A DNA stretch of 64,000 bases, taken from positions 29,211,259 to 29,275,258 of the forward strand of contig OW203770.1 in the NCBI GenBank assembly GCA_934045905.1, in the 5' to 3' direction. This DNA is from Leuctra nigra. Lineage: Eukaryota; Arthropoda; Insecta; Plecoptera; Leuctridae. Positions 1-58,900 of the stretch are shown here, in pieces. The notes under the pieces are model-generated. The model was not told the origin of the DNA, made no database searches, and saw only the letters and a program-made list of their open reading frames with translations. A program made the position numbers and the translations under genes. How positions within the stretch are numbered: the stretch's first letter is position 1; the number at the start of each line of letters is the position of its first letter.

Positions 1-3000
1 GGACTTCAAGGGGTTGGACAGCATCATCACGAAGTGTCTCCACAATGATTGCCAGATGATATGAAGGACGGAAATGGACGGAAATTATGAAATGAGACTT
101 ATGCAACCCGCGCTACTCTGCTGTGTTGCGGGCTGCGGACTTCAAGGGGTTGGACAGCATCATCACGAAGTGTCTCCACAATGATTGCCAGATGAAATGA
201 AGGACGGAAATGGACGGAAATGATGAAATGAGACTTATGCAACCCGCGCTACTCTGCTGTGTTGCGGGCTGCGGACTTCAAGGGGTTGGACAGCATCATC
301 ATGAAGTGTCTCCACAATGATTGCCAGATGAAATGAAGGACGGAAATGGACGGAAATTATGAAATGAGACTTATGCAACCCGCGCTACTCTGCTGTGTTG
401 CGGGCTGCGGACTTCAAGGGGTTGGACAGCATCATCACGAAGTGTCTCCACAATGATTGCCAGATGAAATGAAGGACGGAAATGGACGGAAATGATGAAA
501 TGAGACTTATGCAACCCGCGCTACTCTGCTGTGTTGCGGGCTGCGGACTTCAAGGGGTTGGACAGCATCATCACGAAGTGTCTCCACAATGATTGCCAGA
601 TGAAATGAACGACGGAAATGGACGGAAATGATGAAATGAGACTTATGCAACCCGCGCTACTCTGCTGTGTTGCGGGCTGCGGACTTCAAGGGGTTGGACA
701 GCATCATCACGAAGTGTCTCCACAATGATTGCCAGATGAAATGAACGACGGAAATGGACGGAAATGATGAAATGAGACTTATGCAACCCGCGCTACTCTG
801 CTGTGTTGCGGGCTGCGGACTTCAAGGGGTTGGACAGCATCATCACGAAGTGTCTCCACAATGATTGCCAGATGAAATGAAGGACGGAAATGGACGGAAA
901 TGATGAAATGAGACTTATGCAACCCGCGCTACTCTGCTGTGTTGCGGGCTGCGGACTTCAAGGGGTTGGACAGCATCATCACGAAGTGTCTCCACAATGA
1001 TTGCCAGATGAAATGAAGGACGGAAATGGACGGAAATGATGAAATGAGACTTATGCAACCCGCGCTACTCTGCTGTGTTGCGGGCTGCGGACTTCAAGGG
1101 GTTGGACAGCATCATCATGAAGTGTCTCCACAATGATTGCCAGATGAAATGAAGGACAGAAATGGACGGAAATGATGAAATGAGACTTATGCAACCCGCG
1201 CTACTCTGCTGTGTTGCGGGCTGCGGACTTCAAGGGGTTGGACAGCATCATCACGAAGTGTCTCCACAATGATTGCCAGATGAAATGAAGGACAGAAATG
1301 GACGGAAATGATGAAATGAGACTTATGCAACCCGCGCTACTCTGCTGTGTTGCGGGCTGCGGACTTCAAGGGGTTGGACAGCATCATCACGAAGTGTCTC
1401 CACAATGATTGCCAGATGAAATGAAGGACGGAAATGGACGGAAATGATGAAATGAGACTTATGCAACCCGCGCTACTCTGCTGTGTTGCGGGCTGCGGAC
1501 TTCAAGGGGTTGGACAGCATCATCACGAAGTGTCTCCACAATGATTGCCAGATGAAATGAAGGACGGAAATGGACGGAAATGATGAAATGAGACTTATGC
1601 AACCCGCGCTACTCTGCTGTGTTGCGGGCTGCGGACTTCAAGGGGTTGGACAGCATCATCACGAAGTGTCTCCACAATGATTGCCAGATGAAATGAAGGA
1701 CGGAAATGGACGGAAATGATGAAATGAGACTTATGCAACCCGCGCTACTCTGCTGTGTTGCGGGCTGCGGACTTCAAGGGGTTGGACAGCATCATCATGA
1801 AGTGTCTCCACAATGATTGCCAGATGAAATGAAGGACGGAAATGGACGGAAATGATGAAATGAGACTTATGCAACCCGCGCTACTCTGCTGTGTTGCGGG
1901 CTGCGGACTTCAAGGGGTTGGACAGCATCATCGCGAAGTGTCTCCACAATGATTGCCAGATGAAATGAAGGACGGAAATGGACGGAAATGATGAAATGAG
2001 ACTTATGCAACCCGCGCTACTCTGCTGTGTTGCGGGCTGCGGACTTCAAGGGGTTGGACAGCATCATCACGAAGTGTCTCCACAATGATTGCCAGATGAA
2101 ATGAAGGACGGAAATGGACGGAAATGATGAAATGAGACTTATGCAACCCGCGCTACTCTGCTGTGTTGCGGGCTGCGGACTTCAAGGGGTTGGACAGCAT
2201 CATCACGAAGTGTCTCCACAATGATTGCCAGATGAAATGAAGGACGGAAATGGACGGAAATGATGAAATGAGACTTATGCAACACGCGCTACTCTGCTGT
2301 GTTGCGGGCTGCGGACTTCAAGGGGTTGGACAGCATCATCACGAAGTGTCTCCACAATGATTGCCAGATGAAATGAAGGACGGAAATGGACGGAAATGAT
2401 GAAATGAGACTTATGCAACCCGCGCTACTCTGCTGTGTTGCGGGCTGCGGACTTCAAGGGGTTGGACAGCATCATCACGAAGTGTCTCCACAATGATTGC
2501 CAGATGAAATGAAGGACGGAAATGGACGGAAATGATGAAATGAGACTTATGCAACCCGCGCTACTCTGCTGTGTTGCGGGCTGCGGACTTCAAGGGGTTG
2601 GACAGCATCATCACGAAGTGTCTCCACAATGATTGCCAGATGAAATGAAGGACGGAAATGGACGGAAATGATGAAATGAGACTTATGCAACACGCGCTAC
2701 TCTGCTGTGTTGCGGGCTGCGGACTTCAAGGGGTTGGACAGCATCATCACGAAGTGTCTCCACAATGATTGCCAGATGAAATGAACGACGGAAATGGACG
2801 GAAATTATGAAATGAGACTTATGCAACCCGCGCTACTCTGCTGTGTTGCGGGCTGCGGACTTCAAGGGGTTGGACAGCATCATCACGAAGTGTCTCCACA
2901 ATGATTGCCAGATGAAATGAAGGACGGAAATGGACGGAAATGATGAAATGAGACTTATGCAACCCGCGCTACTCTGCTGTGTTGCGGGCTGCGGACTTCA

Positions 3001-6000
3001 AGGGGTTGGACAGCATCATCACGAAGTGTCTCCACAATGATTGCCAGATGATATGAAGGACGGAAATGGACGGAAATGATGAAATGAGACTTATGCAACC
3101 CGCGCTACTCTGCTGTGTTGCGGGCTGCGGACTTCAAGGGGTTGGACAGCATCATCACGAAGTGTCTCCACAATGATTGCCAGATGAAATGAAGGACGGA
3201 AATGGACGGAAATGATGAAATGAGACTTATGCAACCCGCGCTACTCTGCTGTGTTGCGGGCTGCGGACTTCAAGGGGTTGGACAGCATCATCACGAAGTG
3301 TCTCCACAATGATTGCCAGATGAAATGAAGGACGGAAATGGACGGAAATGATGAAATGAGACTTATGCAACACGCGCTACTCTGCTGTGTTGCGGGCTGC
3401 GGACTTCAAGGGGTTGGACAGCATCATCACGAAGTGTCTCCACAATGATTGCCAGATGAAATGAAGGACGGAAATGGACGGAAATGATGAAATGAGACTT
3501 ATGCAACCCGCGCTACCATGCTGTGTTGCGGGCTGCGGACTTCAAGGGGTTGGACAGCATCATCACGAAGTGTCTCCACAATGATTGCCAGATGAAATGA
3601 AGGACGGAAATGGACGGAAATGATGAAATGAGACTTATGCAACCCGCGCTACCATGCTGTGTTGCGGGCTGCGGACTTCAAGGGGTTGGACAGCATCATC
3701 ACGAAGTGTCTCCACAATGATTGCCAGATGAAATGAAGGACAGAAATGGACGGAAATGATGAAATGAGACTTATGCAACCCGCGCTACCATGCTGTGTTG
3801 CGGGCTGCGGACTTCAAGGGGTTGGACAGCATCATCACGAAGTGTCTCCACAATGATTGCCAGATGAAATGAAGGACGGAAATGGACGGAAATGATGAAA
3901 TGAGACTTATGCAACCCGCGCTACCATGCTGTGTTGCGGGCTGCGGACTTCAAGGGGTTGGACAGCATCATCACGAAGTGTCTCCACAATGATTGCCAGA
4001 TGAAATGAAGGACAGAAATGGACGGAAATGATGAAATGAGACTTATGCAACCCGCGCTACCATGCTGTGTTGCGGGCTGCGGACTTCAAGGGGTTGGACA
4101 GCATCATCACGAAGTGTCTCCACAATGATTGCCAGATGAAATGAAGGACGGAAATGGACGGAAATGATGAAATGAGACTTATGCAACCCGCGCTACCATG
4201 CTGTGTTGCGGGCTGCGGACTTCAAGGGGTTGGACAGCATCATCACGAAGTGTCTCCACAATGATTGCCAGATGAAATGAAGGACAGAAATGGACGGAAA
4301 TGATGAAATGAGACTTATGCAACCCGCGCTACTCTGCTGTGTTGCGGGCTGCGGACTTCAAGGGGTTGGACAGCATCATCACGAAGTGTCTCCACAATGA
4401 TTGCCAGATGAAATGAAGGACGGAAATGGACGGAAATGATGAAATGAGACTTATGCAACCCGCGCTACTCTGCTGTGTTGCGGGCTGCGGACTTCAAGGG
4501 GTTGGACAGCATCATCACGAAGTGTCTCCACAATGATTGCCAGATGAAATGAAGGACGGAAATGGACGGAAATGATGAAATGAGACTTATGCAACCCGCG
4601 CTACTCTGCTGTGTTGCGGGCTGCGGACTTCAAGGGGTTGGACAGCATCATCACGAAGTGTCTCCACAATGATTGCCAGATGAAATGAAGGACGGAAATG
4701 GACGGAAATGATGAAATGAGACTTATGCAACCCGCGCTACTCTGCTGTGTTGCGGGCTGCGGACTTCAAGGGGTTGGACAGCATCATCACGAAGTGTCTC
4801 CACAATGATTGCCAGATGAAATGAAGGACGGAAATGGACGGAAATGATGAAATGAGACTTATGCAACCCGCGCTACTCTGCTGTGTTGCGGGCTGCGGAC
4901 TTCAAGGGGTTGGACAGCATCATCACGAAGTGTCTCCACAATGATTGCCAGATGAAATGAAGGACGGAAATGGACGGAAATGATGAAATGAGACTTATGC
5001 AACCCGCGCTACTCTGCTGTGTTGCGGGCTGCGGACTTCAAGGGGTTGGACAGCATCATCACGAAGTGTCTCCACAATGATTGCCAGATGAAATGAAGGA
5101 CGGAAATGGACGGAAATGATGAAATGAGACTTATGCAACCCGCGCTACTCTGCTGTGTTGCGGGCTGCGGACTTCAAGGGGTTGGACAGCATCATCGCGA
5201 AGTGTCTCCACAATGATTGCCAGATGAAATGAAGGACGGAAATGGACGGAAATGATGAAATGAGACTTATGCAACCCGCGCTACTCTGCTGTGTTGCGGG
5301 CTGCGGACTTCAAGGGGTTGGACAGCATCATCACGAAGTGTCTCCACAATGATTGCCAGATGAAATGAAGGACGGAAATGGACGGAAATGATGAAATGAG
5401 ACTTATGCAACCCGCGCTACTCTGCTGTGTTGCGGGCTGCGGACTTCAAGGGGTTGGACAGCATCATCACGAAGTGTCTCCACAATGATTGCCAGATGAA
5501 ATGAAGGACGGAAATGGACGGAAATGATGAAATGAGACTTATGCAACCCGCGCTACTCTGCTGTGTTGCGGGCTGCGGACTTCAAGGGGTTGGACAGCAT
5601 CATCACGAAGTGTCTCCACAATGATTGCCAGATGAAATGAAGGACGGAAATGGACGGAAATGATGAAATGAGACTTATGCAACCCGCGCTACTCTGCTGT
5701 GTTGCGGGCTGCGGACTTCAAGGGGTTGGACAGCATCATCACGAAGTGTCTCCACAATGATTGCCAGATGAAATGAAGGACGGAAATGGACGGAAATGAT
5801 GAAATGAGACTTATGCAACCCGCGCTACTCTGCTGTGTTGCGGGCTGCGGACTTCAAGGGGTTGGACAGCATCATCACGAAGTGTCTCCACAATGATTGC
5901 CAGATGAAATGAACGACGGAAATGGACGGAAATGATGAAATGAGACTTATGCAACCCGCGCTACTCTGCTGTGTTGCGGGCTGCGGACTTCAAGGGGTTG

Positions 6001-6327
6001 GACAGCATCATCACGAAGTGTCTCCACAATGATTGCCAGATGAAATGAAGGACGGAAATGGACGGAAATGATGAAATGAGACTTATGCAACCCGCGCTAC
6101 TCTGCTGTGTTGCGGGCTGCGGACTTCAAGGGGTTGGACAGCATCATCATGAAGTGTCTCCACAATGATTGCCAGATGAAATGAACGACGGAAATGGACG
6201 GAAATGATGAAATGAGACTTATGCAACCCGCGCTACTCTGCTGTGTTGCGGGCTGCGGACTTCAAGGGGTTGGACAGCATCATCACGAAGTGTCTCCACA
6301 ATGATTGCCAGATGAAATGAATGACGG
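1..6327. repeat. 136-bp tandem satellite, 46 full units plus a partial one
   Basis: The unit starts at GGACTTCAAGGGG and recurs exactly every 136 bp: units begin at 1, 137, 273 and so on to 6257, and 46 x 136 = 6256, so there is no net insertion or deletion. Variation is limited to a few recurring substitutions (AAGGACGG/AACGACGG, GACGG/GACAG, CACGAAG/CATGAAG, CCCGCG/CACGCG, ACTCTG/ACCATG). Each unit has a short inverted pair, GCAAC...GTTGC, extended to GCAACAC/GTGTTGC in the CACGCG variant. 136 is not a multiple of 3 and no long ORF exists, so this is not coding. The array is cut by the left window edge and breaks down near 6327. It could be pericentromeric, telomere-proximal or an interstitial satellite. 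Confidence 0.97.
3401..4352. repeat. Higher-order block within the 136-bp satellite
   Basis: Six consecutive units starting at 3401 carry ACCATG where all other units read ACTCTG. From 3537 the units also alternate GACGGAAATGG / GACAGAAATGG for three cycles, a 272-bp dimeric higher-order period. This is the signature of recent unequal exchange or local amplification of a dimer. Confidence 0.8.
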
Positions 6328-8066
6328 TGGACTGGAGGTGGTTGTGGCCTAGTAGCAGTGTTTCATGTCACTTGATTTCATTCGTCGCTATAAGCCTAGT
6401 TGCAGAACAATACAACAATTTAACTATAGAATAGAAATTTTCTACGTATTTCCTGTGTTTAAATTGTAATAGTTTCTGAATAATGGATTTTTAATTTATT
6501 CCATTATTTCGAAATTTATTTTGGATAAGGGTTGCAAAATACATCAAACGAATACCAATTTGAAAACATTTTCAAGGTCACCGTGTCAGCTTCACCTTGC
6601 CAGACTTGACACTTCATACTTTGTCTTCTTTTCAATCGTTTGTCTCCATCTTCTCGCACCACTTCTTTGTCTCTACTTCTTTCCATTTTCTCCTCTCTTT
6701 TCTACATCCCTTTTGATTCGATAATTTCATCTCTCTTATCTCATGTAATTTCCCAATCCAATGCTCTTCTTGAAATCCTTGTCACCCATCATCATTACTC
6801 TTCTAAACATTAACATCTTTTCCAATCTCATAATTTAATTGAACTAATTACTTATACATAACTCCCAATTTTGTATTTATTTTACTACTGCTATTTAACT
6901 TAAAAATAGATAATGATGGATTGGTTTGATTGATTCATATTCAAACTGAAATGTAACCAAATATTTGCCAAATAATAATTTTCTCGAGTAGTTTGGTGCA
7001 GAGGTGAGAAAATGGAAGACCAAAAGAGAGTACATGTGGGTATCTGCAGGGCGATTGTATAACTTTCTTAGCCGAGATAATGGATCGTTATCTATACCAA
7101 TTGATGAAAGTAAACTATTAATATCATTGTTTACCATTTGAACTGTGTAAAAGCTACGAGGATATGAAATATGATCACATTATTTATCTCAGGAAGTTGA
7201 CTTTACGCACTTTGAATTGCTTTACCTTCTGATAGGCTAAATTACTTTCATAAATTGGTATCGATAACGATCCATTCGTTATCAAAATATTCTCGGCAAA
7301 GAAGTTATACAATCGCACTGCTGGGACGTAAAGGTTGAAAGCACTTGTTTATCAGACTTCTCATACAAGACATCTCATTTCGTGAGTTTTTGTTGCATTC
7401 TGTGTTCTCTCTTTCGGTTTCTTTTCAGTTTGTGTTTCAAAACATACATTTTCTGAAAATATCTGAAAATTAACAAACGGAAAAAAACATTTTTACAATC
7501 ACAATAGGTGTAATGCAATGGGGGTCCTAAGACGTATTGCCCCGCGTAAATGTTGAATTTCCCAAATGGCGCATTCCACATAAGATAATAATATGCATTA
7601 TATTCCCCTCGACCCTAATTTTATTCAGAAATGTCACTAAAAGTGAAAAACATTGCTTTCTCTATTAGTAGTTCTCACATTTCGAAATACATCTGTGTCA
7701 TTGTAAAAACAATTTGTATTAGTTTCACGTTATATTAACTAATTTTTCACAATTTGTATGTATTTTAGAATTATTCTTTTCATGGGTAATAGAAAACATT
7801 AATTTTTGACCGCAGGCTCGGACAAGGGTACAAAAGAAAAAAAACAATGCAAGAATCATCACACATTCGTCTCTTTAGATTTGTGCAACAAATTTATTCA
7901 CAACTTTAATAGTTTTACAAAATATTTGTATACTAATGGTTAAACATAGTATAAGATAAAAGTCTTGTCAGATACAATAATACGTCGGGGACTTGTCAGA
8001 GGCAAGAATAACACAGTACGCAGAACCAAGAGTTTCCATGGCAACAGTAGCGTGGTCCGTGAGGAT
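6328..8066. other. Non-coding spacer between the two tandem arrays
   Basis: AT-rich DNA with no supported gene. Short frames at 6521-6724, 6895-7137 and 7375-7581 lack motifs and look random. The stretch holds one inverted repeat (7046-7322, listed separately). The open frame that runs into the minisatellite at 7965 starts with TTG, not ATG. Confidence 0.6.
7046..7322. repeat. Imperfect inverted repeat, MITE-like
   Basis: The left arm at about 7046-7113 (GCGATTGTATAAC ... ATGGATCGTTATC) is repeated in reverse complement at about 7240-7322 (GATAACGATCCAT ... GTTATACAATCGC). Arms are about 70-80 bp with several mismatches around a spacer of about 125 bp. No target-site duplication was found, so the element type is open. 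Confidence 0.65.
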
Positions 8067-11000
8067 CAGAGCTCATTGCAATGTTCCCTAGTTACACGCA
8101 ACAAACATCAGAGCTCATTGCAATGTTCCCTAGTTACACGCAACAAACATCAGAGCTCATTGCAATGTTCCCTAGTTACACGATACAAACATCAGAGCTC
8201 ATTGCAATGTTCCCTAGTTACACGATACAAACATCAGAGCTCATTGCAATGTTCCCTAATTACACGATACAAACATCAGAGCTCATTGCAATGTTCCCTA
8301 GTTACACGATACAAACATCAGAGCTCATTGCAATGTTCCCTAGTTACACGATACAAACATCAGAGCTCATTGCAATGTTCCCTAGTTACACGATACAAAC
8401 ATCAGAGCTCATTGCAATGTTCCCTAGTTACACGCAACAAACATCAGAGCTCATTGCAATGTTCCCTAGTTACACGATACAAACATCAGAGCTCATTGCA
8501 ATGTTCCCTAGTAACACGATACAAACATCAGAGCTCATTGCAATGTTCCCTAGTTACACGATACAAACATCAGAGCTCATTGCAATGTTCCCTAGTTACA
8601 CGATACAAACATCAGAGCTCATTGCAATGTTCCCTAGTTACACGATACAAACATCAGAGCTCATTGCAATGTTCCCTAGTTACACGATACAAACATCAGA
8701 GCTCATTGCAATGTGCTAGTTACACGCAACAAACATCAGAGCTCATTGCAATGTTCCCTAGTTACACGATACAAACATCAGAGCTCATTGCAATGTTCCC
8801 TAGTTACACGATACAAACATCAGAGCTCATTGCAATGTTCCCTAGTTACACGATACAAACATCAGAGCTCATTGCAATGTTCCCTAGTTACACGATACAA
8901 ACATCAGAGCTCATTGCAATGTGCTAGTTACACGCAACAAACATCAGAGCTCATTGCAATGTTCCCTAGTTACACGATACAAACATCAGAGCTCATTGCA
9001 ATGTTCCCTAATTACACGATACAAACATCAGAGCTCATTGCAATGTTCCCTAGTTACACGATACAAACATCAGAGCTCATTGCAATGTTCCCTAGTTACA
9101 CGATACAAACATCAGAGCTCATTGCAATGTTCCCTAATTACACGATACAAACATCAGAGCTCATTGCAATGTTCCCTAGTTACACGATACAAACATCAGA
9201 GCTCATTGCAATGTTCCCTTGTTACACGATACAAACATCAGAGCTCATTGCAATGTTCCCTAGTTACACGATACAAACATCAGAGCTCATTGCAATGTTC
9301 CCTAGTTACACGCAACAAACATCAGAGCTCATTGCAATGTTCCCTAGTTACACGATACAAACATCAGAGCTCATTGCAATGTTCCCTAGTTACACGATAC
9401 AAACATCAGAGCTCATTGCAATGTTCCCTAGTTTCACGATACAAACATCAGAGCTCATTGCAATGTTCCCTAGTTACACGATACAAACATCAGAGCTCAT
9501 TGCAATGTTCCCTAATTACACGATACAAACATCAGAGCTCATTGCAATGTTCCCTAGTTACACGATACAAACATCAGAGCTCATTGCAATGTTCCCTAGT
9601 TACACGATACAAACATCAGAGCTCATTGCAATGTTCCCTAGTTACACGATACAAACATCAGAACTCATTGCAATGTTCCCTAGTTACACGATACAAACAT
9701 CAGAGCTCATTGCAATGTTCCCTAGTTACACGATACAAACATCAGAGCTCATTGCAATGTTCCCTTGTTACACGATACAAACATCAGAGCTCATTGCAAT
9801 GTTCCCTAGTTACACGATACAAACATCAGAGCTCATTGCAATGTTCCCTAGTTACACGATACAAACATCAGAGCTCATTGCAATGTTCCCTAGTTACACG
9901 ATACAAACATCAGAGCTCATTGCAATGTTCCCTAGTTACACGATACAAACATCAGAGCTCATTGCAATGTTCCCTAGTTACACGCAACAAACATCAGAGC
10001 TCATTGCAATGTTCCCTAGTTACACGATACAAACATCAGAGCTCATTGCAATGTTCCCTAGTTACACGATACAAACATCAGAGCTCATTGCAATGTTCCC
10101 TAGTTACACGATACAAACATCAGAGCTCATTGCAATGTTCCCTAGTTACACGATACAAACATCAGAGCTCATTGCAATGTTCCCTAGTTACACGATACAA
10201 ACATCAGAGCTCATTGCAATGTTCCCTAGTTACACGATACAAACATCAGAGCTCATTGCAATGTTCCCTAGTTACACGATACAAACATCAGAGCTCATTG
10301 CAATGTTCCCTAGTTACACGATACAAACATCAGAGCTCATTGCAATGTTCCCTAGTTACACGATACAAACATCAGAGCTCATTGCAATGTTCCCTAGTTA
10401 CACGCAACAAACATCAGAGCTCATTGCAATGTTCCCTAGTTACACGCAACAAACATCAGAGCTCATTGCAATGTTCCCTAGTTACACGATACAAACATCA
10501 GAGCTCATTGCAATGTTCCCTAGTTACACGATACAAACATCAGAGCTCATTGCAATGTTCCCTAGTTACACGATACAAACATCAGAGCTCATTGCAATGT
10601 TCCCTAGTTACACGATACAAACATCAGAGCTCATTGCAATGTTCCCTAGTTACACGATACAAACATCAGAGCTCATTGCAATGTTCCCTAGTTACACGAT
10701 ACAAACATCAGAGCTCATTGCAATGTTCCCTAGTTACACGATACAAACATCAGAGCTCATTGCAATGTTCCCTAGTTACACGATACAAACATCAGAGCTC
10801 ATTGCAATGTTCCCTAGTTACACGATACAAACATCAGAGCTCATTGCAATGTTCCCTAGTTACACGATACAAACATCAGAGCTCATTGCAATGTTCCCTA
10901 GTTACACGATACAAACATCAGAGCTCATTGCAATGTTCCCTAGTTACACGATACAAACATCAGAGCTCATTGCAATGTTCCCTAGTTACACGATACAAAC

Positions 11001-13430
11001 ATCAGAGCTCATTGCAATGTTCCCTAGTTACACGATACAAACATCAGAGCTCATTGCAATGTTCCCTAGTTACACGATACAAACATCAGAGCTCATTGCA
11101 ATGTTCCCTAGTTACACGATACAAACATCAGAGCTCATTGCAATGTTCCCTAGTTACACGATACAAACATCAGAGCTCATTGCAATGTTCCCTAATTACA
11201 CGATACAAACATCAGAGCTCATTGCAATGTTCCCTAGTTACACGATACAAACATCAGAGCTCATTGCAATGTTCCCTAGTTACACGATACAAACATCAGA
11301 GCTCATTGCAATGTTCCCTAGTTACACGATACAAACATCAGAGCTCATTGCAATGTTCCCTAGTTACACGATACAAACATCAGAGCTCATTGCAATGTTC
11401 CCTTGTTACACGATACAAACATCAGAGCTCATTGCAATGTTCCCTAGTTACACGATACAAACATCAGAGCTCATTGCAATGTTCCCTAGTTACACGCAAC
11501 AAACATCAGAGCTCATTGCAATGTTCCCTAGTTACACGATACAAACATCAGAGCTCATTGCAATGTTCCCTAGTTACACGATACAAACATCAGAGCTCAT
11601 TGCAATGTTCCCTAGTTACACGATACAAACATCAGAGCTCATTGCAATGTTCCCTAGTTACACGATACAAACATCAGAGCTCATTGCAATGTTCCCTAGT
11701 TACACGATACAAACATCAGAGCTCATTGCAATGTTCCCTAGTTACACGATACAAACATCAGAGCTCATTGCAATGTTCCCTAGTTACACGATACAAACAT
11801 CAGAGCTCATTGCAATGTTCCCTAGTTACACGATACAAACATCAGAGCTCATTGCAATGTTCCCTAGTTACACGCAACAAACATCAGAGCTCATTGCAAT
11901 GTTCCCTAGTTACACGCAACAAACATCAGAGCTCATTGCAATGTTCCCTAGTTACACGATACAAACATCAGAGCTCATTGCAATGTTCCCTAGTTACACG
12001 ATACAAACATCAGAGCTCATTGCAATGTTCCCTAGTTACACGATACAAACATCAGAGCTCATTGCAATGTTCCCTAGTTACACGATACAAACATCAGAGC
12101 TCATTGCAATGTTCCCTAGTTACACGATACAAACATCAGAGCTCATTGCAATGTTCCCTAGTTACACGATACAAACATCAGAGCTCATTGCAATGTTCCC
12201 TAATTACACGATACAAACATCAGAGCTCATTGCAATGTTCCCTAGTTACACGATACAAACATCAGAGCTCATTGCAATGTTCCCTAGTTACACGATACAA
12301 ACATCAGAGCTCATTGCAATGTGCTAGTTACACGATACAAACATCAGAGCTCATTGCAATGTTCCCTAGTTACACGCAACAAACATCAGAGCTCATTGCA
12401 ATGTTCCCTAGTTACACGATACAAACATCAGAGCTCATTGCAATGTTCCCTAGTTACACGATACAAACATCAGAGCTCATTGCAATGTTCCCTAGTTACA
12501 CGCAACAAACATCAGAGCTCATTGCAATGTTCCCTAGTTACACGATACAAACATCAGAGCTCATTGCAATGTTCCCTAGTTACACGATACAAACATCAGA
12601 GCTCATTGCAATGTTCCCTAATTACACGATACAAACATCAGAGCTCATTGCAATGTTCCCTAGTTACACGCAACAAACATCAGAGCTCATTGCAATGTTC
12701 CCTAGTTACACGCAACAAACATCAGAGCTCATTGCAATGTTCCCTAGTTACACGATACAAACATCAGAGCTCATTGCAATGTTCCCTAGTTACACGATAC
12801 AAACATCAGAGCTCATTGCAATGTTCCCTAATTACACGATACAAACATCAGAGCTCATTGCAATGTTCCCTAGTTACACGATACAAACATCAGAGCTCAT
12901 TGCAATGTTCCCTAGTTACACGATACAAACATCAGAGCTCATTGCAATGTGCTAGTTACACGATACAAACATCAGAGCTCATTGCAATGTTCCCTAGTTA
13001 CACGCAACAAACATCAGAGCTCATTGCAATGTTCCCTAGTTACACGATACAAACATCAGAGCTCATTGCAATGTTCCCTAGTTACACGATACAAACATCA
13101 GAGCTCATTGCAATGTTCCCTAGTTACACGCAACAAACATCAGAGCTCATTGCAATGTTCCCTAGTTACACGATACAAACATCAGAGCTCATTGCAATGT
13201 TCCCTAGTTACACGATACAAACATCAGAGCTCATTGCAATGTTCCTAGTTACACGATACAAACATCAGAGCTCATTGCAATGTTCCCTAGTTACACGATA
13301 CAAACATCAGAGCTCATTGCAATGTTCCCTAGTTACACGATACAAACATCAGAGATCATTGCAATGTTCCCTAGTTACACGATACAAACATCAGAGCTCA
13401 TTGCAATGTTCCCTAGTTTCACGATACAAA
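8067..13430. repeat. 42-bp minisatellite, 128 copies
   Basis: The unit starts CAGAGCTCATTGCAATG and contains a SacI-type GAGCTC palindrome. From the first unit at 8067 to the last at 13392 there are 127 intervals of 42 bp once four 2-bp deletions (near 8713, 8921, 12321, 12949) and one 1-bp deletion (near 13241) are allowed for. Point variants are few: ATAC/CAAC after ACACG, CTAGT/CTAAT/CTTGT. Because 42 = 3 x 14, two forward frames stay open across hundreds of units (repeats SSLQCSLVTRYKHQ and ELIAMFPSYTIQTS). The third forward frame and all reverse frames have a stop in each unit. The frames begin and end at the small deletions, and I regard them as by-products of unit length rather than genes. 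Confidence 0.97.
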
Positions 13431-13896
13431 CGCAATTGAAACAATATCCTTCTTACTTAATAATTATCACTGTAGTTATAAAAACATCATAAAATTATCA
13501 CAAACATATCATAAAAAAATATTTAAAGCTTAATTTTTCTTAAAAATCCAAAATGATTATAAAAAGCAAGTAAACAAGTAATACATGCATAAAAAGCATC
13601 TCGTACTGCTAAAAAACTGAATGTAAGCGTATATTATCACATGTAATATTCAGACATGATCATCTGAAATAAAATATTTGATTTTACGCTATGCACAGAG
13701 AAGAATTAGATAATTAAGAAGAGTTAAAGCTCAATCTCGGGAGCATTCAATGATATTGTCAATCCGATAACTGGCGTTCTGACGACCATCATCTTTCGAG
13801 ACTTTTCTTCTTATTACATGAAAAGTAGAGAAAACATATCCATTATTAAACAGCTGTGCTAATTCTTATCAATAATGTTCGATCTATCTCTTTTTT
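13431..13896. other. AT-rich 3' flank of the NACHT-ankyrin gene
   Basis: No ORF or repeat structure is recognised in these 466 bp between the minisatellite and the minus-strand gene. This would hold the gene's 3' UTR, or a further 3' exon if the donor-like AAG|GTAAAT near 13911 is used. Confidence 0.5.
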
Positions 13897-16800
13897 TCAG
13901 ATTATATTTACCTTGGTCTTGTTGTAACGAGAGAGCCACTTGATAAAGTCGGTGCCCAAATCTTTGGCTTGTTTTGTTGGGGCTTTTCCTTCACTATCAG
14001 CGCAGTGTTGATCTGCTCCGGCCTTGATCAGACACTTGGCTACTGCCGTGTGTTTGTTCTTCACGGCACGATGCAGAGGCGTCTCATTGTCAATTGTCTT
14101 AGCGTTGACTTTAGCCCCTGCGTGTAGCAACGACATGACAAGGTCCACTTGCCCTGACTTAGCTGCATAATGCAGGGCTGTGCGATGATGACGACTTCCC
14201 TTGACAGTAACATCAGCTCCATTGTCGATCAGATTCTTGGCTACTTCTGTGTGTTTGTATTTCACAGCAAGTAGCAGAGGCGTCTCATTGTGAAGCGTCT
14301 TGGGGTTAACTCGAGCTCCTGCATCTATCAAGGACATTAGAGTGTCAAGTTGCCCTGACTTAGCAGCAAGATGCAGGGGAGTGCGATTGCGCTTGCCCGT
14401 GCTGCTGACATCGGCTCCAGCGTCCATCAGACATTTGGCAACTTCCACGTGTTTGTTCCTCACAGCAAGATGTAAAGCCGTCTCGTGGTCGTCCCGCTTA
14501 ACGCTGAGATGCGCGCGTTGATCTAACAAGTACATCTCGACAGCGTCCAGATTCCCGGACTCAGCTGCCTCATGCAGGGAAATGGGCTTAGTTCTCTTGA
14601 TGCTCACTTCAGCACCATTCTCGATCAGAAAGGTAGCAACATCCACTTGATTGTTGAGCACAGCGAGAAACAAAGGAGTGAGATCACACATTGCTTTAGA
14701 GTTAAGCTTAGCCTGTTTGTTCAACAACAGCTTCACAAGGCTAAGCTGTCCCCACATGGCCGCGTAATGCAGTGGAGTGGCTTTGTACATTCCCTTGATG
14801 TAGACCTCATTTCTCGCCTCGATCAGCCACCGAGCAACTTCTTCGTGGCAGTACCAATCTGTCTTAGCATTGAGACAAGTCTTTACATCTTGCAGTGTTT
14901 CAACAAAGTCGATGTCGAATGTTTCCCACATAGCTGCATGAAACAGGTAATTCCTCTTGCATTTGTCCATGGTGTTAACCTTCGCCCCAGCGTTGATCAG
15001 ACACTTGGCAACGTCGATATGCTTGTTTCTCACAGCTAGAAGCAAGGGCGTCTCATTTGAGCAACTCTTTGCGTTGATATCAGCTCCTGCTTCTAGAAAC
15101 AGCTCGACGAGGTTTAGCTGTCCGAAGTCGGCTGCATGATGCAGAGGATAGTAGTTGTTAGTCCGATCCTTCATATTGACGTCAGCTCCGCATCGGATCA
15201 GACACTTAGCAACTTCAACATGATCGTTTTTCGCAGCTAGAAGCAATGGCGTCTCATCTCGGTGTGTAACAGCGTTGCGTTTAGCCCCCTTGCGTAACAG
15301 CCACTTGACTGTGCTGAGATGTCCTCTCTCGGCTGCGTAATGAAGAGGAGTTTGTTTCGAACCGTCCAGGACATTGAGCCCCGACCCAGCCAGAAGTTTT
15401 ACTATGTTGAGATGGCCTTCTCCTGCTGCCAAGTGTATGGCTAGCGTCTTCTCCCACCCACCGCGTTGCATCATGTCAGCTCCTCTGTCCAGCAAGAACT
15501 TCACAGAGTCCTTGCAACCACTCCCAGCAGCGGCGTGTAGAAGGTAACTTGTAGTGCCATACTCGTCTCTCAGCTGCGTGTTTACTTGTAATTCACATTC
15601 ATCCACAGCGCACTGCAGGATATGAAAACACCCGCGTCTTACAAGTGAATAAAACGTTCTTGGGTCATTGCGTACTTCGCTACTCGCATCATATTCCTTC
15701 TTCAAGTTGTTGATCAGTTCTGTAAGAGCCACCAGCTCATGAGTGTTTGCCTTGTTATTCAGGAGATGTTCCACTTTGCCCCACGTCTTGGTTTTGTCTG
15801 AATATCTCAGAGGAGTTCCCTGCAGTATTCTGTCTGTCAAACTTATGTCAGCACCATGGGTTTGAAGTAACTGCATGATGCTTGCATCTAAACCAAGAAC
15901 ATTGTCACTTTCATGATAAGATGCCGCCAGATGGAGCGCTGATCTGTCGCCCTTGTCAAGCTGGTTCACGTCAGCGCCAGATGTCAGCAGGGTTTCAACT
16001 TGTTCTCTGTCAGCGCTCAACACTGCGTTGTGCAATGGACAATCTCTCGCAAGGAGTCGGTCGAAGAACTGGCGGACTGTTACAAAGCGAGGTTCAAACA
16101 GGTTCTGCGCGATGAAATCATTGCTCGACAATATGTTCTCTGACAGCCACAAAGCCAGGAAGTACTCAGCGAAACATCGATGGATAAAGATTGGTTTGCC
16201 GTATGTCATTACATCAACCAATCCCGTCCATTCCTCGCCTACTGAAAAACACTCCGCAACATTTGAGAATATTTCGTTTCTGTTTAATTTCAACGAACCA
16301 ATTTCTTCATCTGTAAGGAGCAGTAACATTGCAGCGTCGGAGTAGTTCTTCGTAATATATTTTCTTTCTCTTTTTCTCAAACTAATCTGTCTTTTATTCG
16401 AGGCGTTTATTGGATCTTTGACTTTATTTAGAATATTCAATTTCGCTTCAATGAATTCTTCAAATAGCTCAAGCAAATTCAGACTCTTCGGAATTAGTGT
16501 CCCTTCCTTAACATCATTTGCGAACACCTCGCCCAGCATCATGCACTGAAGGGGAATCCCCGTGAACTCTCTGTCTCTGTCACTCAACGATACAGAAATC
16601 TTCTTCAGAAGATTCTGAGCAAACTCCTCTGAATTATATGTGTTCCAAAAATTGACAAGAAAAATAGTTTGATCTTCTCTATTGAATGGCTCAATGGTGT
16701 AACAAATGGAATTAAACTCACTTTCCAAGTGATGTCGCATTACATTTCTAGAGGTCAGCCAAATTTCTCCAATTTTCAGTTTCATCGCGCTTTTGATCAT

Positions 16801-17390
16801 ATTGGTGACTTTGAAATTGTAATATGGACTTATCTCATCAAATCCATCAACGTATAAGTTGACGCTTCCTGTTCGCGTCAAACGGGATCGGAGAATTTCA
16901 GCATCAAGCTCACAATTTGTCACTACATCAATTAAGAAATCTGTAACATGATCATGGCTTGTGAAATACTGCTCACTCAGGCCGTCCAGTTGCCTTGTAA
17001 TGCTGTTCAAGTCGATTGTCATTGCCCATAGAGATCTCTTTTGTGTCTTCGCTGCTTGGGCCAAGTTGTTGATGAAGGTGGTTTTACCCATCCCAGGGCC
17101 AGCAGTCACGAGAACAACTCGCTCATCTATGTTTGTAGCTAAGACTGGTTCCTTCACTTCTTTGTTAATATTCTTCTTTATCACATCCATGTTGTTTTTG
17201 GATTGTTTCCAGCACACGATGAAGTTCGAGTCGTCCACTTTTAACCAGTGCAAATTTTTGCCAGGAATCTTTTGACAGAATCTTGTGAAATCATCTTCTG
17301 TGAATTCATCAGTCCAGTAGAAGTGACCCGAAATGTTATCTTGTTTTTCATCATATTTCGTCAGCCGTATCTCGTAATCATTCTCCACAG
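13897..17390 (-). CDS. NACHT NTPase-ankyrin protein, exon 2 (NTPase and repeat domains)
   Basis: Frame of 1,163 codons ending in TGA at 13897. Its first possible start (17388) is GTG, and a clean acceptor TTTCAG lies just before 17390, so this is an internal exon joined to the exon ending at 17526. Numbering from that GTG: Walker A GPGMGKTT about 97-104, Walker B LYVDGFDE about 178-185 and a sensor-like LTSRN about 211-215. These are seen directly and fit a NACHT/STAND ATPase. A helical linker follows, then about 18 ankyrin repeats from about 452 to 1140 (PLHYAAERGH, PLLLAAKNDH and similar); two or three near 560-620 and 830-870 are degenerate. The repeats alternate between an LHxAAxxGQ type and an LLLAVxNKH type, so growth has been by about 66-residue dimers. 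A donor-like AAG|GTAAAT overlaps the last codons, so the true C terminus could lie in another exon. Likely role: cytosolic sensor whose ankyrins bind a ligand. Confidence 0.85.
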
Positions 17391-17525
17391 CTGAAACCTC
17401 AACCGCTTCAATGTTTGAGATGATGAAAAGTTAACTCTGGAAGTTAACTCTCTTCTCCAGGATCAACTGCTGCGATTCCGACGTCAACTGCCTCTAGCAG
17501 AACTCGTCATGATGTTCCAGGTAAC
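17391..17525 (-). other. Intron of the nuclease-NACHT-ankyrin gene (inferred)
   Basis: The donor CCAG|GTTACC (intron begins at 17525) and acceptor TTTCAG| (ends at 17391) are both phase 1. Removing these 135 bp joins exon 1 to the P-loop exon in frame (proline, then A-V-E-N-D-Y) and removes the TAG at 17494-17496 that would otherwise end the upstream frame. If the intron is retained, the product is a free 398-residue nuclease-domain protein. Confidence 0.75.
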
Positions 17526-18690
17526 CTGGCAACGCAGACTCTGAGAAGAGAATCAGCGTCTTGCCAGGAGAGACTTCGCTGAGCTCATCAGCTAGTGAGC
17601 TAGAATCATCAGCGCTGCATTCTACCACCAACACGTCACACCACACACTCTGCCACGCGCGCAAAACCTCGCGTGTGCATGATGACGAGTGGAGGAATAT
17701 GAAGCGCTTTGTGTGATGTTTCGCCAACATCTGGTGGAGCTTTAAGCTGGTTAACTTTTTGTTAGGTGACGTCACGTTCACCACATTGCTGGACAGTGAT
17801 TGGTGGAAGAAGTCAATCTCTTGGTCAGAGAAGCTTATGTTCAACGCTTCCAATTCCTTCTTCTTCGCATCATTTATCTGGTCAAGTCGCGAGACAATGA
17901 CGTCACGCCACATCTGCGCAGACTCAGTGAGAAGATTCGATGTTCCTGTTTCTTCCCACCACACTTTCATATTCTCTATGAAATTCTTGGCGATCTTCTT
18001 TGTATCTACCTCGCTTGTTGCCAAGGCCTCCTGAATCTCTTTTTCAATTAGGGATCCGAGCATCTCTTCAGAAGCCTGGCCTGTGTAAAATTGAATTCTT
18101 TGCAGGAACTCATCTATCGTAGCTTTATCGTTGGCTGTCTGCTTTTCACACTCTTCCTTGATCTTGTTCATTGCTACTTCATTGAAATAGAAAGGAGGTG
18201 CAATATCCTGGTTTGTAGCAAGCAGTGATTTGTTGCTTCTCGACATCTTCCTCACTGACGTCAAAGATTTGTCGATCTTCCCGTTCGTGTAAATAACAAA
18301 GTCACAATTTCTGAAGTCAATGTCAAAAAGCATAGATCTTCCTACATTCTTGGCTACTTCACAAAATGACTTGTAGTATTTACACATGCTGTAGCTGCCG
18401 GACGCTTTGACGAGCTGATCAAGAGTGACGATTGCGTTTCCCTTCTCGTTGTGCTTTAACTGCACAAAGCAAGTCCTGAACTCACCCTCTGCTTGCAACT
18501 TGTACTTGAACACCATGTGGTCGAATGCGCCTGCGCCGGCGACATTGCAGCCCATCATGAAGCCGGCTGTGCGGTTCAAACAGCGCAGGAACAACAGCGC
18601 CGCCATCTTGTACTCATATTGAGGGCCAAGCAAAGTGGCTGCGCCGGCCAACTTCTTGTATTTCAAAGACCTGTGCACAAACATAGACAT
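17526..18690 (-). CDS. NACHT-ankyrin gene exon 1: Cap4/PD-(D/E)XK-like nuclease domain
   Basis: ATG at 18688-18690 opens a frame of 388 complete codons before the donor at 17526. A helix with YEYKMAALLFL (residues 25-35) precedes F-D57-H and, about 20 residues later, F-V-Q77-L-K79-H. This D...QxK spacing is that of PD-(D/E)XK nucleases, and the local pattern (YQ-type helix, acidic residue, VQxKH, later FVIYTNGK) resembles the Cap4-type dsDNA endonuclease effector family of bacterial defence proteins. That assignment is by motif memory, not search. A charged linker follows, then an alpha/beta region (RFIFLHSS ... DVLVVECS ... GKTLILFSES) before the NTPase. GTGCACAG|GTC near 18670 looks like a splice acceptor, so the first codons could instead come from an upstream exon. 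No in-window promoter is evident. Confidence 0.75.
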
Positions 18691-21347: not shown

Positions 21348-22333
21348 GATGATCTAGACCACGTGACCACCTACGTCATGCCCTGCAATCTTCAAAACGA
21401 ATCAGGCCGCCATTACATTTTTAAGAAGAAAAGATGGGTTCACTTTCGTTCGAATAACTTCATAATTACCCTAGCTACAATAATTCGATCAAGGACTTGG
21501 GTGTTAATAAAAGATCGCTCTCAATGTTTCATATGACACTTTAATAATGAAAATGCTTTACTGAACTAAAAAGTGGGTTTTCACTACGGCAAAACGTCGG
21601 CAAAACGTCGACCACGACACGCAAATCAAGTCTCATTAAACTGGACATTACGAAAATATTAAACACACACCTGCAGTTATGATCTATACGATATTCCTTA
21701 TTTTTCACGACGGATTTTTTCCATTCTTTTACAAGCACAACACATCTCCAAATTACTTCAACGAGCCTACATATTACACCGTCTTGCTCCTCGTATTTAA
21801 GTTTTGTCTACTGTCAGGTTAGAACCACTGCCTTCTTTATTATGACTTTTCGAAGCAAGGTCAGGAGTTTCCAAGGTTGTTTCTTTGGCGTGACAGTAAA
21901 GCAAAACTTAAATACGAGGAGCCAGTAATTTGGAGATGTGTTGTGCTTGTAAAATAATGGAAAAAATCCGTCGTGAAAAATAAGGAATATCGTATAGATC
22001 ATAACTGCAGGTATGTGTTTAATATTTTCGTATTGTCCAGTTTATTGAGACTTGATTTGCGTGTCGTGGTCGACGTTTTGCCGATGTTTTGCCGTAGTGA
22101 AAACCCACTTTTTAGTTCAGTAAAGCATTTTCATTATTAAAGTGTCATATGAAACATTGAGAGCGATCTTTTATTAACACCCCAGTCCTTGACCGAATTA
22201 TTGTAGCTAGGGTAATTATTAAGTTATTCGAACGAAAGTGAACCCATCTTTTCTTCTTAAAAATGTAATGGCGGCCTGATTCGTTTTGAAGATTGCAGGG
22301 AATGACGTAGGTGGTCACGTGGTCTAGATCATC
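21348..22333. mobile_element. 986-bp near-perfect palindrome (foldback element)
   Basis: The segment begins GATGATCTAGACCACGTG and ends with its reverse complement CACGTGGTCTAGATCATC. The arms (about 21348-21755 and 21925-22333) match along their whole length with scattered single-base differences and small indels. The inner arm (CTCCTCGTATTTAAGTTTTG near 21786 and its complement near 21901) leaves a loop of under 120 bp. No transposase is present. No obvious target duplication was found. Candidates are a foldback transposon, a palindromic duplication or an assembly inversion artefact. Confidence 0.9.
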
Positions 22334-23087
22334 ATTAATAAAATATATTAACAAGTATATATTTCACAGTTTAGTTAGACCATTATCTGTCAGTAAGTTC
22401 ATGTGTCTAACTTAAGGTCCCGTGGTAGCTGTCCCAAAATGCTAAACATATTCACTTCGAATGTTCAATTTAGTCCGTTTTGTCCCTCATCAGATGAGTT
22501 ATGAAACAAACATCTGTTGGAACTAATCTACGTAGAAAGAACTGCTAAAACATCGATAAAGATTGTTTTACGTCCTTGCACCTAAATATTATCATATCAA
22601 GACTTGAAGTTGAAGTAAATCCTACGAGCAGAAAAGAATAGCAAACTTTACTCTAATAAATGGGCACAATGTATCACAAACCTGACACAATTTTGTCGTC
22701 AAAACATGCTCTCTTTCTTCATCTTTCCAACGAGATGTCGAGATATTATTTATATCCACTGTGTGATTGTAATATTTACCATAAAAGCACCGGGGTTTGA
22801 CCGTTTTCATGTGCGTATAAATAAACGTTTTTTTATTTTATTATTATTCCAACAATTAGTGCCAAGGCTAAAAATTTTATAGTGCATTACATTTTACATT
22901 TCCTATTTAGCAGAAATGTGGACATAATTGAGAAAATTAATTTGAAGATGAAATAATTGTTCAACAATATTGGGATCTGTTTTAAAAGTTTCAGAAGGCC
23001 CTAAAGATTCACATATGTGATTCTGAAGAATGAAGAATGCATAAGAAGAATCATCATATGCAATCATATGATTGCATGACATTTTTA
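22334..23087. other. Gene-free spacer
   Basis: AT-rich sequence between the palindrome and the SINE/LINE-like repeat. Short frames (22622-22810, 22903-23106 minus) show no motif or codon signal. Confidence 0.5.
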
Positions 23088-40646: not shown

Positions 40647-41669
40647 ATACGATCTGTTGCCTATACACTTGCTACCCGATCACGTCGTATCGCAGACGAA
40701 GATAACATCAAGGATGAATTGAAATCACTTGAAGACGCTCTCCTGCTGAATGGATTCGCCCCAAATGTCATCAAAAAGGCAATTATGAGAAAAACTAACG
40801 CAGAAAGACAGCGAGAAATTGAAAAGGAAAGAGAGGACCAACAAGAGACTGATAAATCGGAAGATCAAGTTGTAGAACGAGAAAAGTCATATCTAGCATT
40901 TATGCCCTATGTGTGCGGTGTCACTGATAGAATTAGTAAACTCTTGAAAGAAGTAAACGTAAAAACAGTATTTGATACTGACAGAAAGCTGGCAAGTCTT
41001 ATTAGAAACTGTAAAGATTCAAGGCATCTTGAAGGATGGGGCGTGTACCAGGTCCCGTGTGAGAATTGTGACAAAGTATATGTCGGACAAACTAATCGCA
41101 ATGTCTCTCAACGTATCCAAGAGCATCGTTTGGACGTAAGACAGGACAAAACTACATCATCACTTGCGGGTCACGTGAGAGAAAGCGGGCACAGAATAGA
41201 TTATGATGGAGCAACGGTCCTTGTCCGATCAGAAAAGTTGCTTCCAAGATTGATAAGAGAGGCAATAGAAATCGAGAGACGGCCAACTTTCTGCTTAAAC
41301 AAGCAAGTTGATAGCCAAAAACTTTCTCAATCCTGGGCGCCATTAGCACCAGTCATCAACATAAAGCCACGTGAGAAAGCAAAATCCACACATGTCGTAT
41401 CAAGGAGATCAAGGAGATCAGTGAGGACAAGGAGATCCGATGTCCAATTTTCAGACTCAGATGAAGAGCCTCTAAGTGTCATCGCAACCAGACTGAGAAA
41501 TAAGGAGAAACAAAAGGATGATACAAGAACAAACATCTCAGCGAAAACCCAAACAAAGTCCAGGACCAAACACAAAGATGGCGCAAGAAAAAGTAGTACA
41601 TCATATGAAGCAACTACAAGCACGCCCAGAGTCACTAGATCAATGGCAAAGAAGAGAAACTTAAGATGA
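40647..41669 (+). CDS. Penelope-like element, 3' part with GIY-YIG endonuclease (5' truncated)
   Basis: The frame is open from about 40647 (ATRSRRIADEDN...LLLNGFAPNVI, typical of the RT-to-endonuclease linker) to the stop at 41667. The GIY-YIG nuclease core is GVYQVPCENC then YVGQTNRNVSQRIQEH with a downstream basic, serine-rich tail (RRSRRSVRTRRSD). The reverse transcriptase that normally precedes it is absent, so the insertion is 5' truncated. The ATG-less start at 40719 is not a real start. It lies antisense within an intron of the zinc-finger gene. Confidence 0.85.
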   Translation: MRSVAYTLATRSRRIADEDNIKDELKSLEDALLLNGFAPNVIKKAIMRKTNAERQREIEKEREDQQETDKSEDQVVEREKSYLAFMPYVCGVTDRISKLLKEVNVKTVFDTDRKLASLIRNCKDSRHLEGWGVYQVPCENCDKVYVGQTNRNVSQRIQEHRLDVRQDKTTSSLAGHVRESGHRIDYDGATVLVRSEKLLPRLIREAIEIERRPTFCLNKQVDSQKLSQSWAPLAPVINIKPREKAKSTHVVSRRSRRSVRTRRSDVQFSDSDEEPLSVIATRLRNKEKQKDDTRTNISAKTQTKSRTKHKDGARKSSTSYEATTSTPRVTRSMAKKRNLR

Positions 41670-48439: not shown

Positions 48440-49430
48440 GTCAAGGCAGGTGGTAGCCAACGGAGAACAACAATAGGATGGGGTGCGCCGTGTACCTGCG
48501 AGCACGTGCTAGTCCAGCTGGTAGCCAACGGAGAACAACAATAGGATGGGGTGCGCCGTGTACCTGCGAGCACGTGCTAGTCCAGCTGGTAGCCAACGGA
48601 CAACAACAATAGGATGGGGTGCGCCGTGTACCTGCGAGCAACAACAATAGGATGGGTGCGCCGTGTACCTGCGAGCAACAACAATAGGATGGGTGCGCCG
48701 TGTACCTGCGAGCAACAACAATAGGATGGGTGCGCCGTGTACCTGCGAGCAACAACAATAGGATGGGGTGCGCCGTGTACCTGCGAGCAACAACAATAGG
48801 ATGGGTGCGCCGTGTACCTGCGAGCAACAACAATAGGATGGGGTGCGCCGTGTACCTGCGAGCAACAACAATAGGATGGGTGCGCCGTGTACCTGCAAGC
48901 AACAACAATAGGATGGGTGCGCCGTGTACCTGCGAGCAACAACAATAGGATGGGTGCGCCGTGTACCTGCGAGCAACAACAATAGGATGGGTGCGCCGTG
49001 TACCTGCGAGCAACAACAATAGGATGGGGTGCGCCGTGTACCTGCGAGCAACAACAATAGGATGGGTGCGCCGTGTACCTGCGAGCAACAACAATAGGAT
49101 GGGTGCGCCGTGTACCTGCGAGCAACAACAATAGGATGGGGTGCGCCGTGTACCTGCGACCACGTGCTAGTCCAGCTGGTAGCCAACGGACAACAACAAT
49201 AGGATGGGTGCGCCGTGTACCTGCGAGCAACAACAATAGGATGGGTGCGCCGTGTACCTGCGAGCAACAACAATAGGATGGGTGCGCCGTGTACTTGCGA
49301 GCAACAACAATAGGATGGGGTGCGCCGTGTACCTGCGACCACGTGCTAGTCCAGCTGGTAGCCAACGGAGAACAACAATAGGATGGGGTGCGCCGTGTAC
49401 CTGCGACCACGTGCTAGTCTCTTCGAAGCA
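48440..49430. repeat. Minisatellite inside transposon copy 2, ~22 copies
   Basis: GCGCCGTGTACCTGCGAG followed by CAACAACAATAGGATGG recurs about 22 times as 37-38-bp short units, interspersed with longer units that add CACGTGCTAGTCCAGCTGG. Transposon copy 1 has this sequence once (complement near 27413-27460). Open frames on both strands come from the repeat and are not genes. Confidence 0.92.
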
Positions 49431-55940: not shown

Positions 55941-58900
55941 AATCAAAGCAATAGTAGAGTAGCCGATATAGAGTCCAAGTCAACTAATGATGATACCTGC
56001 TTAGCATGGCCAGGGATAGACCGGCCCACGCTAAGCAGGTATGAATCATTAGTTGACTCTGACCGTAGACCACATGCAGGGACAATGGAGTCCGAGTACC
56101 TAATGGAAATCATACGTGTTAGCAGTAACATTTGTAGAGATGTGTCACCTGTAGGAATGGGATTTTTCCGGAAAAATATAAATGAGAAATTTCCGATAAA
56201 AATTTCTGGAAAAATATGGAAAAATTTGGAAAATTTTAAAATATAGAGCCTCTTAAATGAAATTCATCCCATTTTTTCATCATTTTCATCAATATTCACA
56301 TTCAAGTAGGTACACTAGAAAATCATTAGAGTCTCATCATTAGAGGCATCGATTCCGTCATACTGTTCCATGTAAATCGTAATGAATCCTAAATTGCCTC
56401 GGAACCCGGACGGATCAAATGGTAATCGACCTCGGCGAGTTAAACGGAATATGAGTATCGGATGTTGGAATGTCCAAGGGATTAGCAATAAGTACCCAGA
56501 GGTTTTCAAGGAGCTTGCAAATCTCCAAATCGATATTGCTGTCCTATCGGAAACTAAAAAGAAGGGTAATGGAAATGAAATATTGCAAGATTACGTCCAT
56601 TTCTACAGCGGAGTAGACAAGGATAGAAGGGCAAAGGCCGGAGTATCGATTGCAGTACATAAAAAGCTGAAAAATAAAATTGTAAACTGGACAGCAATTG
56701 ACGAACGTTTGATCACCCTAGAACTTGCACTTCAGCAGCATAGGTTAGTAATAGTAGGCGTTTATTCGCCAAATGATGACGCAGACCGGCAGGTCAAAGA
56801 CGATTTTATGGATAAGTTGACGGAAGTGTTAGGAAATATTGGGGATCGAAAAGAAATTGTTGTGATGGGCGACTTTAATGGTAGAGTGGGAAAAAGGAGA
56901 AACGACGAGATCGTAGGGCAATATGGAGAGGATTTGGTAAATGATAACGGAACCAGATTGATTGAGATTTGTTCTCAATTCTCTTTCAGAATTATGAATG
57001 GATTTTTCCGTCATAAAGATATCCATAAGTTCACCTGGTTCCAGCCCACCAGAGGCTACAAGTCCATTATTGACTACATCGTCATCAAAAAAAATACTCG
57101 CATTAAAGTATTAGATGTAAAAGTCCAGAGAGGCGCACAGTGCGGTTCAGATCATTTTTTAGTAAAAGCAAAGGTTCATATAAATTACAGAAATTATAGG
57201 AGTAAATCAATTGAACCAAATATAGACCAAGGATCTTCAAAACTTCAGGAACCGAAGTATGACCTACGGGGTTTTGAAAATGACTCGACTGTATTCTTGT
57301 ATAAGCTTAGATTAGCTGGGAAAATGAACGCCATATTAGAAGGGACTCCAGAACAAAGATATCTATTGCTGAAGAACTATGTACATCAAGCTGCTTCAGA
57401 GGCATTAGGCACAGTAGATTATGGAAGAAAGAAGAAGAATCTCCAAAACCCACATTGGTGGAATGATAGCTTGGAACACCTAACAGAAGAAAAGAGAAGA
57501 CTTTACCAAAGGTGGCTGTCAACCAAAAATGGTGAAGATAGACGGTTGTACATGCGCTATAATTATATGGTGAAGAAAGAGATTAAGAAAGCTAAGAACA
57601 CTTTCTGGGATAGAAAGTGTGATGAAATTAATTCACTGTTAGGAAGCTCGCGTTCAAGATTGGCTTGGAAGACACTGGGATCGTTGAAGACAAACACACA
57701 GCAACAGTTAAGGATAGACCCAATTGGACATCAGAAATGGCAAAAGCATTATCAAGAACTGCTGACCGAGAACAGACCGCTATACAGCAACATACAATAC
57801 ACATCAGTGCCAATAGCTCTTGGAGAAGTATGTGAGGAGGTGACATGTGCAGAGATCATGATGGCTCTAAAATCCACGAAGAATAATAGATCAGCTGGTC
57901 CTGGAAGTATACCTATCGAACTTATAAAAAATGCTCCGTTAGTAACTATTGAATCCCTGGCCGGTATATTCACTGAATGCTTGCGTGGAGGTGAAGTACC
58001 GGGAGAATGGAAATTGAGCTACATCAGCTCCATCTATAAAAAAGGAGACAGGAAGAACTGTGGAAACTACAGAGGGATCAGCGTTTTGTCGTCGATAGGT
58101 AGGCTGTATGGACGAATTCTGACTAAGCGGTTAGAACAGCAAGCTAGAGTCACAGAAGAACAAAGTGGTTTCAGGAGCGGGAGATCATGTGTAGACAACC
58201 TTTTCTGTATAAAACAACTTATGGACAAGAGTATTGCACATGGAAGTGAATTACACCTGATTTTCGTAGATCTTAAAAAGGCATTTGACAGCGTTCCTTT
58301 AAATAAATTATGGGAGGCTCTGGAAGATCAAGGGATCGAAACAGTTTATGTGAATGCTATTAAAAAGCTCTATGAAAATGCTGTAAGTTGCGTAAAAAGT
58401 GGACAATCATATTCAGAAGAATTTAAAATCAACAAAGGTGTTAGGCAGGGGTGTCCTTTGTCACCAACCCTGTTCAAAATATACGTGAACAGGGTTTTAG
58501 AGAATTGGTCTAGGAAATGTAGTTCGATGGGTGTTAAAATTGGGAAAGAATATATACACTCTTTACTATTCGCAGACGATCAGGTGGTTCTTGCTGAAGA
58601 TGAACACGACGCAGAATACATGATGAGAAAGCTTATAGAAGAATACGATTCCTGGGGCTTAGAAGTGAATATGGATAAGACTCAATGTATGGTCATTGGA
58701 AGAGAGGGTCAAGACATGGTAACCGATAAAGGTATTATAAGATTAACAACAGAGTACAAATATCTAGGTGTGACATTGACGGCTGACGGAACGGATGAGA
58801 GGGATGTGCTGAACAAGCTGGGCAGAGGAAGAGCGATCACCAGACAATTACACCCAGTGCTTTGGAACGATGTCATCTCAACCAAGACAAAAACACGTAT

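Follow-up and report, generated by a model that had tools for sequence, protein, structure and literature searches.

A probably inactivated member of a large Leuctra nigra gene family predicted to join a nuclease fold to NACHT and ankyrin domains

Introduction

Animal NLR proteins are thought to work mainly via adaptors. Among bacterial nucleases, Cap4, HerA-DUF4297 and LmuA (Lamassu) serve as stand-alone effectors in other bacterial systems, with no NACHT-ankyrin fusion. Bacteria also have nuclease effectors joined to STAND systems (PMC8195603). Prophage WO carries a NACHT-ankyrin protein with homologues throughout arthropods and crustaceans, and the available portion of the source names the parts of WO-type proteins as NACHT, ankyrin and a latrotoxin-type end, with no nuclease among them (PMC5062602). 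Most subscription papers and bioRxiv preprints lie outside the literature searched, in which, including the accessible parts of PMC7159879 and PMC11249213, there is no animal nuclease-NACHT-ankyrin protein. This silence is weak evidence of novelty.

The gene family described here resembles Avs proteins in placing an N-terminal effector, predicted to have a nuclease fold, ahead of a STAND NTPase (NACHT), all in one frame in the paralogs. Unlike Avs3, its sensor is built of ankyrin rather than TPR-like repeats, it is not known to have a phage target, and its NACHT half fits animal NLRs better; its similarity to Avs3 is too low for a sequence search to reveal. The family also departs from Cap4, HerA-DUF4297 and LmuA in that its predicted nuclease is fused to NACHT and ankyrins. 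It shares with the animal NLRs NLRC4, NLRP3 and NOD2 a NACHT of predicted NLR type (modeled on homologue P0039), and the NACHT of the gene examined here passes the Pfam cut-off; however, a predicted nuclease stands in place of the death-fold effector of NLRs, and ankyrins in place of their leucine-rich repeats. Finally, it resembles the NACHT-ankyrin proteins of arthropods and prophage WO in having arthropod homologues with both parts (PMC5062602).

A preliminary description presented the gene as a spliced eukaryotic counterpart of Avs proteins. The order of nuclease, NTPase and repeats is indeed shared, and the C-terminal array that replaces the TPR-like sensor does consist of ankyrin repeats, whereas the NACHT half is most like that of animal NLRs and the gene reads as broken rather than spliced.

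Results

Two open frames on the minus strand

We refer to the whole 64,000-nucleotide stretch of DNA analysed as the window. The pair of open reading frames reported previously at 13897-18690 is present on its minus strand, and both lie in the same frame, separated by a TAG and a TAA codon. The features of the gene are as follows.

17494-18690, minus strand: first open frame, 398 codons, ending in TAG at 17494-17496
18136-18636, minus strand: nuclease-like PD-(D/E)XK domain, about codons 19-185, with D57, Q77 and K79 kept; placed by model and fold matches, boundaries approximate
18517-18519, minus strand: codon 58, His replacing the Asp of 20/20 compared paralogs
17527-18135, minus strand: helical part, and a P-loop-like segment (about codons 263-388) that lacks Walker A
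17391-17525, minus strand: interval previously read as an intron; coding in relatives and paralogs
17428-17451, minus strand: deletion scar, with AGAGTTAACTT twice (17441-17451 and 17428-17438) and TAA at 17431-17433 inside
13897-17388, minus strand: second open frame, 1163 codons, NACHT and ankyrins
16654-17121, minus strand: NACHT domain (PF05729, 32.0 bits)
13960-16026, minus strand: ankyrin array, boundaries approximate

The Walker A (GPGMGKTT) and Walker B (LYVDGFDE) motifs noted earlier are both found in the window translation, where the NACHT score compares with a Pfam cut-off of 26.7 bits. Fifteen PF00023 stretches pass singly, a number compatible with the previous estimate of about 18 ankyrin repeats. 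The modeled NACHT half of the arthropod homologue P0039 matches NLRC4, NLRP3 and NOD2, and in a Foldseek search with the long model a dynein motor comes out on top, followed by NOD2 and then NLRP3. On the basis of the P0039 model, the NACHT of the family is predicted to be of NLR type. A search of viral structures returned one match below 0.001, with a TM score of 0.24, which is not convincing.

The remainder of the window holds other features. Positions 1-6327 hold a tandem array with a period of 136 bp (46.5 copies, 99% matches), and a 42-bp minisatellite of 128 copies, open over long stretches in at least two reading frames, occupies 8065-13431 and ends 466 bp from the 3' end of the gene. 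A long inverted repeat, seen by eye at about 21360-22340, is possibly a foldback element, and repeats of 37 and 68 bp lie at 48447-49338. An open frame at 40719-41669 has a GIY-YIG match barely above the Pfam cut-off, and 56382-59327 encodes a LINE-type protein of 981 amino acids with endonuclease and reverse transcriptase domains, one of whose closest relatives is 90% identical over 59%.

A predicted nuclease fold at the N-terminus

The preliminary description proposed a PD-(D/E)XK nuclease fold for the N-terminus, and structure matches bear this out. Specifically, the predicted model of codons 1-398 (pLDDT 84) has as its top PDB matches the nucleases of Avs3 (8dgc), Cap4, HerA-DUF4297 and LmuA. 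The three motif residues reported for this region are present, together with H80, but the YQ-type helix also reported is not seen in the window copy, in which residues 25-26 are YE. The usual FDD motif is FDH here, the second acid (D58) having changed to His.

Sequence searches give sparser matches. Of the 13 N-termini compared with PADLOC models, which came from 12 paralogs and the window copy, 2/13 matched LmuA (best 7e-08), 4/13 matched an endonuclease effector model, and up to 3/13 matched each of the SAVED-PDDEXK models; the first frame of the window gave 0 PADLOC matches, and none of these nuclease models matched six further homologues from elsewhere. No Pfam or NCBIfam family was over cut-off for the N-terminus, and its search by sequence against solved structures gave chance matches only. 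When the whole alignment was searched against solved structures, the best 60 of 629 matches covered the ankyrin part. Because the PADLOC matches are sparse and no Pfam or NCBIfam family matches, the nuclease assignment rests mainly on the predicted fold, which for the family is of the Cap4/DUF4297/LmuA type. The segment that follows resembles a P-loop fold but has no Walker A, and may be what is left of an earlier Avs-like STAND domain.

Might the N-terminus have kept this fold without its activity, serving binding or assembly instead? We think this unlikely. One paralog, L022, has Ile in place of K79, as such a role would allow. Against it, D57, D58, Q77 and H80 are kept in all 20 compared paralogs and K79 in 19 of them, despite N-termini as low as 24% identical to that of L018. 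(The comparison omits L009, which is without the nuclease part; L013, L020 and L023, whose frames are broken; and L027, the twin of L026.) The dN/dS values, which are below 1, also argue for a constrained domain: for the nuclease segment, the values in four overlapping paralog pairs are 0.52, 0.34, 0.21 and 0.25, and those for NACHT are 0.17-0.30 and those for the ankyrins 0.38-0.46. The L025-L026 pair is absent from this set, and for the window copy synonymous sites are near or over saturation.

The putative intron at 17391-17525

The two open frames were previously joined by a phase-matched intron, a claim that finds no support here. In 16 homologues and in paralogs of the same genome, the 135 nucleotides in question correspond to conserved coding sequence, and at the site of FQS in the window 12 of the 16 aligned homologues have FQG, as counted from alignment blocks. 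All 10 close paralogs examined (L010, L011, L014, L015, L018 and L029-L033) have a single open frame across the interval. Nine of these could be aligned by a motif pattern, which L033 did not match, and in 9/9 the position of the window TAG is TGG. The supposed donor, CCAGGTTACC, is identical letter for letter in 6/9, where it stands as translated codons. Comparison with the paralogs does not support a non-coding intron here. Straight read-through of the window gene gives HDEFC*RQLTSESQQLILEKRVNFQS*LFIISN.

A working gene could nonetheless arise if the interval were spliced out, either as the intron first described or as a coding stretch turned intron, so that the nuclease and NACHT-ankyrin parts were joined. 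The interval does begin with GT and end with AG, keeps the frame and encloses both stops, and the remaining frame is open. However, 102 frame-keeping GT-AG intervals would bridge both stops, the interval of the preliminary description among them, and the sequence that would be removed is coding in 10/10 close paralogs, in which the donor is translated as two codons. The joined protein would also be short of some 110 family residues, the conserved linker among them, and D58 would still be lost; since the TAA comes with the deletion described below, two events are enough to explain the lesion. Splicing of this kind is therefore quite improbable.

Several nuclease-bearing frames of about 380-500 amino acids suggested that copies might have an intron or a break in common at the linker. 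We rejected this idea after examining 10 broken or split copies, seven of them chosen because their frame is short yet lies at the usual distance from a NACHT: no intron-sized extra sequence lies there in any of the 10, and stops and shifts of frame are scattered along their length. In 5 of the 10, one falls within residues 475-548 of the relative, so there is some clustering.

A deletion scar in the window copy

Approximately 65 codons are absent from the window copy, and the joint is an 11-bp duplicated scar that creates the TAA. Matches to paralogs typically stop at nucleotide 1254 of the window gene and, in comparisons with L029 and L031, restart at nucleotides 1262 and 1259, with 195 and 198 nucleotides missing. 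The two copies of the repeat at the joint lie 13 bp apart, with the TAA within the second. As this stop arises with the deletion, two events suffice, the deletion itself and a single substitution. Across 40 columns that do not otherwise vary, the window copy has 2 substitutions and 2 gaps, and other copies have 0-6 substitutions. Thus, the window copy is no more worn at these columns than intact copies, and the loss looks recent.

We conclude that the window gene is probably a recently inactivated member of a large family whose intact members are predicted nuclease-NACHT-ankyrin proteins. Two observations run counter to reading it as broken: its roughly 1,560 codons hold at most 2 lesions, which sit near each other in a pattern that a new intron would share, and wear at the invariant columns is no greater than in intact copies. 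An assembly error in an otherwise whole gene is very improbable, for although single-stop copies are present elsewhere in the assembly, a 195-198-nucleotide gap with an 11-bp duplication and a separate substitution is atypical of a base-calling slip.

A large family in one genome

The 536-Mb genome contains 102 scored NACHT matches. The N-terminal 250 amino acids of one paralog have 180 matches, and among the 150 listed 136 cover the N-terminus, the other 14 being set aside because too little of it is covered. These at least 136 N-terminal copies, the genome counts being lower bounds, comprise 94 whose open frame reaches 1000 amino acids or more, 14 with frames of 600-999 and 28 with shorter ones. 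For the best 20 of the 102 NACHT matches, the nuclease part lies in the same open frame as NACHT in 16; three have a broken frame and one lacks the part. Most examined members place the predicted nuclease fold, the P-loop-like segment, the conserved linker, NACHT and ankyrins within one long open frame.

Some copies are near-identical duplicates (L019 and L020, 98.8% over 7.8 kb; L026 and L027, 99.99% over 10 kb). Comparison among the copies shows a family that is large and contains both such duplicates and broken members.

Individual members vary in layout. L022 (2183-6700) has a second nuclease-like module near its C-terminus, and L016 (1556-5056) has two successive nuclease-like modules at its N-terminus. 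The best NACHT match in the genome, L009 (3956-5752), lies in a 599-amino-acid frame that has no nuclease part, and it looks to be an ordinary NLR NACHT.

Relatives in other organisms

A database search with the first 760 residues gave 40 matches, the named ones all from arthropods, and only some of the matches align to the nuclease region. The Blattella protein P0004 covers 97% of these residues at 25% identity. An alignment-based search (21 matches) also reached fungal, nematode, flatworm, crinoid and bacterial proteins. Two relatives, P0010 and P0023, carry a lipase domain (PF01764) beside NACHT and ankyrins, and the N-terminal part thus appears exchangeable.

A phage origin was considered and rejected: neither the N-terminus nor the NACHT region has a match in 50,697 phage records. 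The window NACHT likewise has no match in the phage collection, so kinship with the WO protein is not seen there. For a prokaryotic source, one scan of a genome collection returned a single locus in a proteobacterial bin (L034:1-4614), which has the family's linker, the segment that follows the nuclease, as well as its NACHT, split around a transposase-like frame on the opposite strand. This locus may point to animal-bacterial exchange, or the contig may have been mis-binned.

Discussion

By analogy with known systems, we hypothesize that in intact members the ankyrins would bind a trigger, upon which NACHT would exchange nucleotide and assemble an oligomer. The oligomer would then gather the nuclease domains, which could cut DNA, either that of an invader or the cell's own. 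This proposed working draws on the biology of Avs, Cap4 and NLR proteins. The window copy would yield separate or abnormal fragments at most.

We tentatively suggest, as an idea that may well prove wrong, that about a hundred apparently whole animal proteins combine an Avs/Cap4-type DNA nuclease, an NLR-type NACHT and a variable ankyrin sensor in one direct fusion, and form an adaptor-free, DNA-cutting system of defence or of self/non-self recognition that is shared with other arthropods. If true, a large animal family with a built-in nuclease would tie bacterial nuclease-STAND defence to animal immunity, and these nuclease-NACHT-ankyrin proteins would be a candidate NLR-like repertoire for arthropods.
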